Source of the DNA: a virus
IMG/VR virus record: IMGVR_UViG_3300031111_000014
Location: 1 to 53,673 of that record
Length of the DNA stretch: 53,673 nt
Strand: one strand, 5' to 3'
Every line of letters starts with the position of its first letter. Within the stretch, counting starts at the first letter, position 1. A program made the position numbers and the translations under genes. The notes under the pieces were generated by a model. That model was not told the origin of the DNA. It saw only the letters and a program-made list of their open reading frames with translations, and searched no databases. Positions 17,832-21,162 of this stretch are shown piece by piece.

Positions 17832-18875
17832 CTACGCCCGCCCCATATCTACATACTTCATTATCGAAAACCTGTCGTGGCTTTCCTTTACCGCCTTAAC
17901 GTCGTGGCAGATATACCGTTGCGTAGTCCGAATATCCTGATGACCGAGTACCCGCCTAAGCATCTCTATGTCCATGCCGTTTTCGTGTAGGGCGGTCGCA
18001 CCGGATCGCCTGAGCATATGAGGATAGACCTTGAGCCCGACCTTCTTACCGGCCGCGACGACGATCTTCCTGATCCGGTCCTCGCTCATGGGATCTCCGT
18101 TCTTGTAGCAGATAAGCCGATCCCCGGCCCGTTTGTCCCTGTATTTCAGCCGCCAATGGTGTATCGCCTCGGCCGTCCGGGGTGAAATCGGGACCAGCCG
18201 CTCCCTCCTGGACTTGCCCCTGACGACGAGCAGGCGGTCCAATATCCGGCAATCGTCCACGGTCAAATTGATTATCTCGCCAACCCGCAAACAGGCGTCC
18301 AACATTAATAGGGACGCCAAGTGGTCCCGGTATCCAGTGAACCGACGCCGGTTGAACTGTTGTAGGAACGTGCCTATCTGGATGGGCTTCAACACCGGCA
18401 TGATCCGCTGCTCTACCGACATCAGGTGGACTCTCTCCATCGGGTTGTGATCTATCAGGTCTTCCGAGGCGAGGTAGTTGTAGAAGACTCGGAACACGCG
18501 GATTCTACCGTTGACGGTTTCCGGCGATACGTGACCAATGATGGACACCAAATAGCTTTGAATGTGAGATTGTTGGATTACCCCGAGATGGATTCCCGAG
18601 AGCAGACAGAACCGCATCAGGTAACGTAGCCTATCGGCGTAACACTTCAAGGTCCGCCGTCTTAACCCCTTGAGTTGACAGTGCAGATAAAACGATTCCA
18701 GCAATTCCCGATCTGAATATCCCGTTGTATAATTCCCCCGAGGCTTCTCCACGATGCTTCTGGTGCTCTCAGTATAGGAAGAGCTCCCGGTCTGCGCAAG
18801 GGAAAAGAGGACCCGCCAAGAGGTATTTACGGTGTTCTTTGTCCGGTTAAGGTCGCCGACGTACTGGGGGTCCAT
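17832..18875 (-). CDS. int: Tyrosine-type integrase
   Basis: 347 residues. Site-specific recombinase for phage integration and excision. N-terminal SAM-like core-binding domain about 52-150, catalytic domain 160-340 with the full set of active residues: R197 (ACLRVGE), K221 (GKSRRERLVP), H286 and R289 (HMLRR), H312 (LGHQD) and the nucleophile Y321 (TTQRYICHD). XerC/D-like. GGAGG lies 6 bases before the start. A perfect-consensus promoter faces it. The likely attP (tRNA fragment) is about 550 bases away across the regulator. Confidence 0.95.
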   Translation of the reverse strand: MDPQYVGDLNRTKNTVNTSWRVLFSLAQTGSSSYTESTRSIVEKPRGNYTTGYSDRELLESFYLHCQLKGLRRRTLKCYADRLRYLMRFCLLSGIHLGVIQQSHIQSYLVSIIGHVSPETVNGRIRVFRVFYNYLASEDLIDHNPMERVHLMSVEQRIMPVLKPIQIGTFLQQFNRRRFTGYRDHLASLLMLDACLRVGEIINLTVDDCRILDRLLVVRGKSRRERLVPISPRTAEAIHHWRLKYRDKRAGDRLICYKNGDPMSEDRIRKIVVAAGKKVGLKVYPHMLRRSGATALHENGMDIEMLRRVLGHQDIRTTQRYICHDVKAVKESHDRFSIMKYVDMGRA

Positions 18876-19350: not shown

Positions 19351-20033
19351 TGTCAGCCGCCCTTGACAACACCCCGTCGACTCCGCGTATTTGCGGAAGT
19401 CCTTGCACGTCAAGGGTTGGACGGGCCACCGTAGCTCAGTTGGTAGAGCAGCTGATTCGTAATCAGAGTCCCTGCTCCCCCCGCTCCTCGACGACACCAC
19501 AACCACTTAGTCTGACGCCCCACGTCCTCACCGAGGGCAATCACAAGGCCCATCAGTTATCCCTAGAACTCACAAATCCAAACCAATCGGTCACATTTCG
19601 TCGGTGTCGAAAGTGCGGTAATGTCAAGCCGTTAGCAGCATTCTATCGAGACAAAAACAGTATTGGGGGGCACCGCTGGAACTGCAAAGAGTGTCATCGC
19701 CGACAGATGGTGGGCTATTATCGCGAGTACGCGGAGCGGCATCGAGCCGCCGTCTCTTCGTGGGCCGAAAGAAATCCAGAGCGGAAACAGGCGGTCAACG
19801 ATGCATATCGGCGAAGGCATCCAGATAGACAAGCGGCCCGGCGGCAGCTGCAGCGGGCCATCCGCGCTGGCCGCATATCCCGTGGTCCCTGTGCTGTCTG
19901 TGGCACGACGGTCGACATCCACGGGCACCACGAAGACTATAGTAAGCCCCTAGACGTGATATGGCTCTGCGGTAGACATCATCGGGAGTATCACGCGGGA
20001 CAAATCCAGATAGAACACAGGGAGGCGTCGTGA
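19350..20033 (+). CDS. HNH endonuclease; reading frame crosses the tRNA fragment
   Basis: 227 residues from ATG 19350, coupled to the regulator stop. Confident part starts near residue 80: zinc ribbon CRKCGNVKPLAAFY...CKEC, three 15-residue basic repeats beginning YYREYAERHR, then an HNH core CAVCG...DIHGHHEDYSKPLDVIWLCGRHHREYH. DNA endonuclease, possibly homing. Residues about 27-39 (VAQLVEQLIRNQ) are simply the translation of the tRNA-Thr fragment. There is no in-frame ATG or GTG between that fragment and the zinc ribbon, so either this fused frame is used or the gene lost its own start. Confidence 0.65.
   Translation: MSAALDNTPSTPRICGSPCTSRVGRATVAQLVEQLIRNQSPCSPRSSTTPQPLSLTPHVLTEGNHKAHQLSLELTNPNQSVTFRRCRKCGNVKPLAAFYRDKNSIGGHRWNCKECHRRQMVGYYREYAERHRAAVSSWAERNPERKQAVNDAYRRRHPDRQAARRQLQRAIRAGRISRGPCAVCGTTVDIHGHHEDYSKPLDVIWLCGRHHREYHAGQIQIEHREAS
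19363..19393 (+). promoter_or_regulatory. Possible tRNA promoter carried by the phage
   Basis: TTGACA (19363-19368), 19-base spacer, TATTTG (19388-19393); start would fall near 19400, about 25 bases before the tRNA 5' end. The spacing is long. If real, it could drive the tRNA rebuilt by integration. Confidence 0.35.
19425..19467 (+). other. 5' half of tRNA-Thr(CGT): probable attP core
   Basis: Acceptor 5' strand GCCACCG, T8-A9, full D-arm GCTCAGTTGGTAGAGC, anticodon arm with loop TTCGTAA (anticodon CGT at 19458-19460), through position 43. After 19467 no variable loop, T-arm or matching acceptor strand (CGGTGGC) follows, so it is not a complete tRNA. Adjacent to a tyrosine integrase, it most likely is the identity segment where the phage recombines with a host tRNA-Thr gene, replacing the 5' half. 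thrW-type genes are known integration targets. Confidence 0.7.
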
Positions 20034-20052
20034 CCTCCCTAACATTAAATAA

Positions 20053-20559
20053 GGGCGAGTGGCGGAATATAGACGCAAGTTCTGGGATCAGACTGTTGAT
20101 GGCGCGGGAGCGATACCAGCTAAGTAATGTCTTATGCCTTCGGGTACTGGGTCGTAATAACAGGAATTGCATCGTGGATGCAGCCATGCCGTGCCGTGCC
20201 AGGGTGGAAGTCCCTGGCCTCGCCCTGCAAAATATCTACTACGTTACTTCCTTCACTCCATTGTTTGCGGTACTCGTACCTCGGCGCGGTAGTTTCCACC
20301 CGCGTCGGGGTCAAGATTACGGGGCGGCACATCGACAACCCCAACATGAAAGGCGGGTGGTCGCTGAGTCATGTCACGCCGCCCCATTAAAATCAAGGGG
20401 CTTGGTCATTAGTCGGCATCTTTTACGACCGATGCGCGGCGACGGGGTGATCCCGGTCGAATATCACCCCACCAAGCCCCATAGGCTTTCATTCCAAAAC
20501 CCCGCGTCCCGGTCATCTATTACCTGTGTTACCCTACCCAACCCCCACGGCCGGGACGC
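20053..20559 (+). ncRNA. Candidate large structured RNA with pseudoknot
   Basis: The 565-base space between the HNH gene and the next gene has no convincing protein but many perfect helices: GGGCGAG 20053/CTCGCCC 20219 (7 bp) closing a domain with hairpins 20168-20182 and 20198-20218 (7 bp); 20279-20288/20301-20310 (10 bp, two G-U); 20321-20328/20378-20385 (8 bp) enclosing an H-type pseudoknot (20333-20341/20355-20363 with 20344-20349/20369-20374); 20397-20406/20471-20480 (10 bp) enclosing 20412-20443 and 20444-20451/20463-20470 (8 bp); 20504-20512/20551-20559 (9 bp). The weak ORF 20030-20602 is Arg/His/Ser-rich and unlike a protein. Class unknown; strand assumed from neighbours. Confidence 0.6.
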
Positions 20560-20598
20560 ATTGAAATTTAGCGACTATTCGATATGGGGAGATTTGCG

Positions 20599-21162
20599 GT
20601 GAAGTATTACAAGGTGCTCAACGAATACGGTGGAGCGTGTCACGGCGGGTCGGGCAAGTGGTTACTACCGGACGGTGACACGCCCGGCGGGTGGATGCCG
20701 CGTATCAAACAAGTTATCCCCTGTAAACGCGGTTATCACCTGTGTCGCAGGGGCGATCTTGTGGTGTGGTTGGGGCCAACGATTTATCTGGCTGAAGGCC
20801 GAGGCGAGAAGGTAGTAGGTGACGATAAGGTGGTTTTTGCGGAAGCGCGGCTCATTCGCAAATTCAACACATGGGACGATAGAACGAAACGACTATTTGC
20901 TGCCGATTGTGCTTTTCATGTTCTCCATTTCTATGAAGAGCGCCACCCCAAAGATGACCGCCCCCGCAAAGCCATTGAGGCGGTCCGGCAATTCGCCAAT
21001 GGACTAATTAGCCGCCAACAACTGTCCGCCGCTAGGGCCGCCGCTAGGGTCGCCGCTTGGGACGCTGAGGGCGCCGCTAGGGCCGCCGAGCGTGAATGGC
21101 AAACGCGGAGGTTATTTGAATACCTGAACGGTAAAACGAAATTTAGCGATGCCTTGATATAA
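20599..21162 (+). CDS. Phage protein of unknown function (DUF7666-like)
   Basis: 187 residues from GTG 20599, preceded by GGGGAG at good spacing; the in-frame ATG 20584 overlaps that site. N-terminal region KYYKVLNEYGGACHGGSGKW...CKRGYHLCRRGDLVVWLGPTIYLAEGRG resembles a family of phage proteins often followed by an Ala-rich helical tail; here the tail has imperfect repeats of AARAA/RVAAWDAEGAARAA. Function unknown. Confidence 0.6.
   Translation: MKYYKVLNEYGGACHGGSGKWLLPDGDTPGGWMPRIKQVIPCKRGYHLCRRGDLVVWLGPTIYLAEGRGEKVVGDDKVVFAEARLIRKFNTWDDRTKRLFAADCAFHVLHFYEERHPKDDRPRKAIEAVRQFANGLISRQQLSAARAAARVAAWDAEGAARAAEREWQTRRLFEYLNGKTKFSDALI

Follow-up and report, generated by a model that had tools for sequence, protein, structure and literature searches.

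A conserved pseudoknotted RNA domain in a tRNA-like frame of a tailed phage, and related phage frames with exchanged interiors

Introduction

What kind of product is encoded by a helix-rich gap between two phage genes is the question raised by this locus. The window, i.e., the whole stretch of 53,673 nt analysed here (IMG/VR record IMGVR_UViG_3300031111_000014), comes from a tailed phage with terminase, portal and tail tape-measure genes; it carries an integrase gene on the minus strand (17832-18875) and is probably temperate. The gap lies between an HNH gene, which ends at 20033, and a gene starting at 20584. The original prediction read its 507 nt from 20053 to 20559 as one large, consistently nested structured RNA without a named class, possibly related to GOLLD and ROOL, or an intron-like element or ribozyme associated with the HNH gene, and pointed to a tRNA nearby. 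Two features of the surroundings were observed alongside. The 5' part of a tRNA-Thr(CGT) gene (19425-19470) overlaps the upstream end of the HNH ORF near the integrase gene, next to which this fragment is probably the phage attachment site. The protein encoded downstream of the gap (20584-21162) matches Pfam Imm5_like (E = 2.5e-11) and contains an Ala/Arg-rich repeat.

Results and discussion

A structured, non-coding gap

All proposed helices are present where they had been placed, including GGGCGAG/CTCGCCC (20053-20059/20219-20225) and GCCAGGG-TGGAAGT-CCCTGGC (20198-20218), both checked in the sequence and in the fold. Compared with shuffled sequences, the gap (20034-20598) folded with z = -2.13, 2 of 100 shuffles being equally good, which is a moderate signal. 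Searching Rfam 15 at gathering score and at a lenient E ≤ 5 returned only the tRNA-Thr fragment in the window and nothing in the gap.

Could the gap instead encode a protein? An ORF of 190 aa (20030-20602) remains open across it, with a GTG start overlapping the HNH stop and a good ribosome-binding site (SD-like GGGAGG). Homologues of the conserved part nevertheless carry 2-5 stops in this frame, the product has no Pfam match, and the helices change in a compensatory manner. The coding reading is thus contradicted for the conserved part, and we regard it as extremely unlikely. The suggested kinship with GOLLD or ROOL fares no better, nor does an intron or ribozyme tied to the HNH gene. GOLLD occurs near tRNAs, and GOLLD, ROOL and OLE are structured RNAs tied to phages or mobile elements. 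The HNH gene is indeed adjacent, but none of the other loci with the conserved domain described below (type A) has an HNH homologue, which makes such a link unlikely, and no group I or II intron, HEARO, GOLLD or ROOL model from Rfam matched the window at gathering score or E ≤ 5. Both versions are contradicted by these results and retain hardly any credibility.

A tRNA-like frame around a pseudoknotted domain

As judged by sequence comparison, the plus-strand element at 20053-20225 (173 nt) is a tRNA-like frame holding a pseudoknotted type-A domain of ~120 nt in place of the anticodon and variable region. The acceptor-like stem pairs GGGCGAG (20053-20059) with CTCGCCC (20219-20225). After a 2-nt spacer follows a D-arm-like hairpin with a 3-bp stem, GCG-GAATATAGA-CGC (20062-20076), whose context TGGCGGAA..TAGACGC resembles tRNA-Leu, as do GTGGCGGAATTGGTAGACGC in jumbo phages and its counterpart in Flavobacterium phage FL-1. 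On the 3' side, the T-arm-like hairpin (20198-20218) stacks directly on the 7-bp acceptor stem. Order and spacing are therefore those of a tRNA, and the outside of the element is a slightly eroded tRNA-Leu (GTGGCGGAATATAGACGC ... GCCAGGGTGGAAGTCCCTGGC). The D-loop lacks GG and the T-loop (TGGAAGT) lacks TTC, so that the elbow contact is not conserved. The sequence after the element is TGCA, without CCA. ARAGORN called no tRNA at 20053-20225, and no promoter-like site was found near the element by consensus. That the frame is tRNA-like we consider very likely. The predicted link to a tRNA thus turned out to be real in a different sense from that supposed, since the RNA itself is tRNA-like and the tRNA-Thr fragment is separate.

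From 5' to 3', the inner domain consists of hairpin PA, the 5' strands of PB and PC, helix PD with inner hairpin PE, the PB 3' strand, a variable hairpin PF and the PC 3' strand. PA is TCTG-GGAT-CAGA in the window (20081-20092) and TTTG-AAAG-CAAA in others; it is weak in other members, one of three pairs failing in most rows of the alignment. PB pairs CTGTT (20093-20097) with AACAG (20159-20163), and PC pairs GGCGCGG (20101-20107) with CCGTGCC (20189-20195). PB and PC cross, which makes the domain a pseudoknot; the predicted helices are real, and their consistent nesting is not quite right. A near-invariant core, GAGCGATACCAGCTAAGTAATGTCTTATGCCTTCGGGTACTGGGTCGTAATAACAGGAATT (20108-20168), follows the PC 5' strand; it contains PD (20116-20119/20147-20150) and PE (20135-20138/20143-20146) and forms invariant columns in alignments A1 and A2. 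PF reads GCATC-GTG-GATGC in the window (20169-20181) and GAGG/CCTC, GCGG/CCGC or AACCG/CGGTT in relatives.

Homologues and covariation

A blastn search of phage records yielded one clear relative, Proteus phage vB_PmiP_Brookers, with 90% identity over 62 nt of 20108-20169 (E = 4e-15). Successive pattern scans of IMG/VR recovered 5, 15 and 44 contigs with type A, among them jumbo phages of about 343-373 kb. The domain was also found in prophages of Pseudomonas and Pantoea genomes by pattern scan and in FL-1 by a separate search; a Jeotgalibacillus match (L056) was rejected as a chance pattern match. All relatives share one larger plan, in which the core domain is preceded by a D-arm-like hairpin and followed by a T-arm-like one, the latter stacked directly on the stem that closes the element. 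The outer part in the jumbo phages and FL-1 is clearly that of tRNA-Leu (GTGGCGGAATTGGTAGACGC ... GCAGGTTCGAGTCCTGC), with canonical T-loops (TTCGAGT and TTCGAAC). Type A thus sits on tRNA-Leu-like scaffolds in the window, the jumbo phages and FL-1, and on another tRNA-like frame in phages of the Proteobacteria Proteus, Providencia, Pantoea and Pseudomonas.

The crossing helices are supported by compensatory changes. PB occurs as CAGTT/AACTG, CGGTT/AACCG and CTGTT/AACAG, the last being the window's version. PC, where covariation is strongest, occurs as GCAAGC/GCTTGC, GCGAAC/GTTCGC, GAGAGT/ACTCTC, GGATTA/TAATCC (jumbo phages) and GTTACA/TGTAAC (FL-1), besides the window's own pairing. In an alignment of 13 distinct rows, from which the window, jumbo phages and FL-1 were left out, 96.6% of cells pair, and compensatory double changes occur in 8 of 29 pairs (31 cells), compared with 0-1 in register-shifted controls. 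The covariation score of these rows was 0.239, against 0.102 for shuffled and at most 0.047 for slid alignments. A covariance model built without these same three groups recovered all of them, with E-values that are rough (jumbo phages, 1.5e-17; window, 1.5e-13 at 20079-20202; FL-1, 1.4e-7); the window's match includes the covarying PB, PC, PD and PF.

The fold energy of 20053-20225 (z = -2.33) would be moderate evidence by itself; it is homology together with covariation that establishes this RNA, and we conclude that it is almost certainly a conserved non-coding RNA. For this part of the gap, the expectation of a structured RNA without a named class is borne out by the covariation, the held-out model match and the lack of any match in Rfam 15. 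Type A is a pseudoknotted RNA family new to Rfam 15, with near-invariant loops across distant hosts.

Could the inner domain be a self-cleaving ribozyme? The order of PB, PC, PD and PF is topologically HDV-like, PB and PC cross with a hairpin in each loop, and several unpaired bases are near-invariant. PB, however, has 5 bp rather than 7. In the joiner between PF and PC, the candidate catalytic C varies: FL-1 has U there, and in the window it is displaced. In addition, no Rfam ribozyme model matched, and cleavage would break the frame. We consider this reading very improbable.

Adjacent stem-closed domains

Downstream of the tRNA-like RNA, four plus-strand domains (20279-20559) each have a closing stem of 8-11 bp. 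Folded alone, the hairpins at 20279-20310 (z = -3.96) and 20504-20559 (z = -3.79) and the domain at 20397-20480 (z = -4.23) fold strikingly well. The last had been described as a stem around further hairpins, and it is real, forming a three-way junction. At 20321-20385, the 8-bp-closed domain finds weak support (z = -1.99), whereas the H-type pseudoknot proposed inside it does not. No relatives were found for any of the four, and no homologous RNA was found upstream of the downstream gene's relative (L308). A better description of the 507 nt than a single large RNA is one proven RNA (20053-20225) followed by three or four separate stem-closed domains.

A commoner frame with exchanged interiors

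Most type-A copies are borne by a second, commoner frame, consisting of a stem, an AAT-like 3-nt spacer, a D-stem with loop AGGCTGAT, an interior, a T-stem with loop AGATCAGCA, and the stem's 3' strand. The AGGCTGAT D-loop is complementary to the AGATCAGCA T-loop (GCTGAT/ATCAGC). The window element does not belong to this frame, as its D-loop is GAATATAGA and its T-loop TGGAAGT; only the inner domain is shared. Frame elements were gathered by their loop sequences, leaving stem positions unconstrained by the search. Among at least 260 unique elements, acceptor positions 4-9 pair in 89-98%, compared with 44-78% when shuffled. The loops also covary among the matches listed, A facing T in 11 of 13 elements and G facing C in 244 of 247, the latter count being biased because two scans required C there. 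Using the frame as a BLAST query, we obtained hits in 418 of 50,697 phage records at E ≤ 10 and in 1,003 of 5,426 E. coli genomes at E ≤ 1e-3, many of these through the 5' half only. An element in phage P1 also fits the frame.

From phage to phage, the whole interior is exchanged. Among the matches listed, 288 frame elements contain 136 unrelated interior clusters. In the same set, interiors are unrelated in 60 of the 251 pairs whose flanks are close, and 294 pairs combine near-identical interiors with unrelated flanks. For instance, Klebsiella phages 6991 and ZCKP8 share an identical upstream stretch of 700-800 nt and a frame that is 98% the same, and their interiors are no closer than shuffles. 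Conversely, a 39-nt interior is common to ZCKP8, swi2 and the lambdoid phage HK620 despite different flanks, and another is common to IME207, mEp460 and a P1-like plasmid. In the N leaders of Proteus, Providencia and Enterobacter phages, slots with one basal stem hold at least four different contents. We have very little doubt that the interior of the AGGCTGAT frame is exchanged modularly. The presence of type A both in this frame and on tRNA-Leu-like scaffolds, seen only in the window, the jumbo group and FL-1, would represent the same phenomenon at one more level.

Under nested folding, the interior modules have a mean z of -0.46 against shuffles. On average they are thus no stabler than shuffles, so that compact folding of all interiors is not supported and many may lack it. 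T-loop-like motifs occur in 9 of the 136 interiors, compared with 1.1 in shuffles (e.g., L090, 3694-3841), as though tRNA fragments had been recruited as cargo. Furthermore, a second stem-closed domain with variable contents, GGTAAGAGCAT..GTGCTCTTTCC, lies directly 5' of the AGGCTGAT frame in several loci (L302, L304, L309-L315, L345); the CACAAC flanking it is a potential competitor for the GTTGTG in the stem that follows.

Genomic placement and possible function

Frame elements occupy varied positions. In Brookers and related lambdoid phages of Proteus, Providencia and Enterobacter, a boxA/boxB-like nut site precedes the RNA and an arginine-rich N-like gene follows it; in many Pseudomonas loci a small ORF begins 23-35 nt after the RNA. 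These positions would also suit a cis-acting leader that controls a downstream phage gene by antitermination (put- or nut-like), attenuation or translation control. The put RNA of HK022, a structured antitermination RNA in an early phage leader, consists of two short stem-loops acting in cis. Against such a leader, the genes downstream of type-A copies are mutually unrelated and differ from phage to phage, and relatives of the frame stand alone beside tRNAs, on the opposite strand to neighbouring genes or before a terminator. In Shuimuvirus-like phages they neighbour tRNA genes and run antisense to structural genes. In HK620 the element separates Q from the holin gene and precedes the annotated terminator tQ, and in P1 it lies downstream of trnT, with plp and upl annotated on the other strand. 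The motif TGCTCTTT, which precedes the frame in 34 of 250 elements among the matches listed (0.6% in controls), was considered as a boxA and withdrawn, since it pairs with GGTAAGAGCA upstream and is the 3' strand of the neighbouring stem. Genuine nut sites are still recognised in the N leaders of lambdoid phages. The cis-leader reading is, in our opinion, unlikely; the varied placements and unrelated downstream genes favour a trans-acting RNA, without proving it.

In P1 (NC_005856, L347), several stem-closed tRNA-like elements stand in tandem with trnA and trnT at about 69503-70210, and plp and upl, opposite to such elements, may be spurious annotations. Short frames resembling tmRNA tags, with (A)TAAAT before them and a stop after them, were also observed upstream of frame RNAs, at distances of up to about 0.9 kb and mostly of about 200-230 nt, namely at 68944 in P1 (ANDDLMMVAA), 2301 in HK620 (L302), 1809 in HC6 (L304), 1772 in Magnus (L305), 2300 in L307 and 991 in L309/L310. 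Other tags read ANDDVVLMAA, ANEEMYLAVA, ANDEQFLAVA and ANDDLMLMAA. ARAGORN and Rfam thresholds leave these sites uncalled, and they are possibly undescribed phage tmRNAs.

A further alternative is that the RNA is a piece of a tmRNA-like apparatus acting on the ribosome. The combination of frame and pseudoknot matches the tmRNA plan, and in HK620, Magnus, HC6 and P1 tag-like reading frames precede the frame elements. Yet a tag frame is absent from the window RNA and from the vicinity of type-A copies, there is no CCA end, and neither ARAGORN nor Rfam calls a tmRNA here, which renders this alternative quite unlikely.

We lean slightly towards the reading that 20053-20225 encodes a stable trans-acting phage RNA made of a frame and an exchangeable module. 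The frame would provide tRNA-like folding, processing and stability, as well as short homologous ends for recombination, and the module would decide which host RNA or protein is engaged. Modules would be exchanged because the target, in host regulation or anti-phage defence, keeps moving under diversifying selection. Whether the function is both trans-acting and host-directed is about evenly balanced, and a specific counter-defence role is somewhat improbable. Type A itself resembles rather a fold with a single binding partner; its target is probably conserved, given loops that are nearly invariant across distant hosts, and for the same reason a single partner can be sought.

Phage RNAs with a constant tRNA-like frame and a swapped inside apparently form a wider undescribed group, which hundreds of sequenced phages including P1 seem to carry, unannotated or under doubtful hypothetical ORFs. 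There is a little less than an even chance that tailed phages share an RNA cassette system in which unrelated RNA effectors are swapped by recombination between constant tRNA-like frames, type A, which occurs on several frames and in hosts of different phyla, being the most widely conserved. If true, such a system would parallel, at the RNA level, the swapping of anti-defence or host-takeover genes. A constant frame whose contents can be exchanged would amount to a naturally occurring version of the engineered 'tRNA scaffold', and would allow phage RNA effectors to be catalogued directly and their binding partners to be tested.

Comparison with known systems

Neither the type-A family nor the frame-and-module plan was found in Rfam 15 or in the literature searched, which lay mostly outside the subscription journals, where a prior description is possible. 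Among larger structured RNAs, GOLLD, ROOL and OLE differ from the window RNA in architecture, the window RNA being much shorter and without a match to their covariance models. tmRNA likewise has a tRNA-like outside and pseudoknots inside; in contrast, the window RNA is about half as long, lacks a tag frame and has no sequence match, no tag frame with a resume codon being found in the window and no Rfam tmRNA matching at E ≤ 5. With tRNA-Leu, the element shares the acceptor, the TGGCGGAA..TAGACGC D-arm and an arm with a 7-nt T-loop, and it differs by having neither an anticodon arm nor CCA, with the pseudoknotted domain at the anticodon position.

The nearest described relatives are STnc100 (Rfam RF02076) and PasD, prophage sRNAs of Enterobacterales. 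In its Rfam structure, STnc100 is closed by a GGUG/CACC stem; an AAU spacer and a D-arm-like hairpin lead to the inner part, after which a T-arm-like hairpin is stacked on the 3' acceptor strand. By visual comparison with this consensus structure, the window shows the same frame architecture with a 2-nt spacer, and in P1 an STnc100-type element adjoins the AGGCTGAT-frame element. The two differ in loop sequences, the window having a tRNA-Leu-like scaffold with a pseudoknot, and the RF02076 covariance model matched neither the window at E ≤ 5 nor the type-A loci scanned. STnc100 is transcribed in EHEC, as verified by Northern blot (PMC5331693), and PasD is a base-pairing sRNA with the structure of STnc100 and a different seed region (PMC13192938); neither these papers nor Rfam appear to describe a tRNA-like frame with swapped modules. 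The overall plan is shared with STnc100 and PasD, which supports a role as regulator or anti-regulator for some modules.
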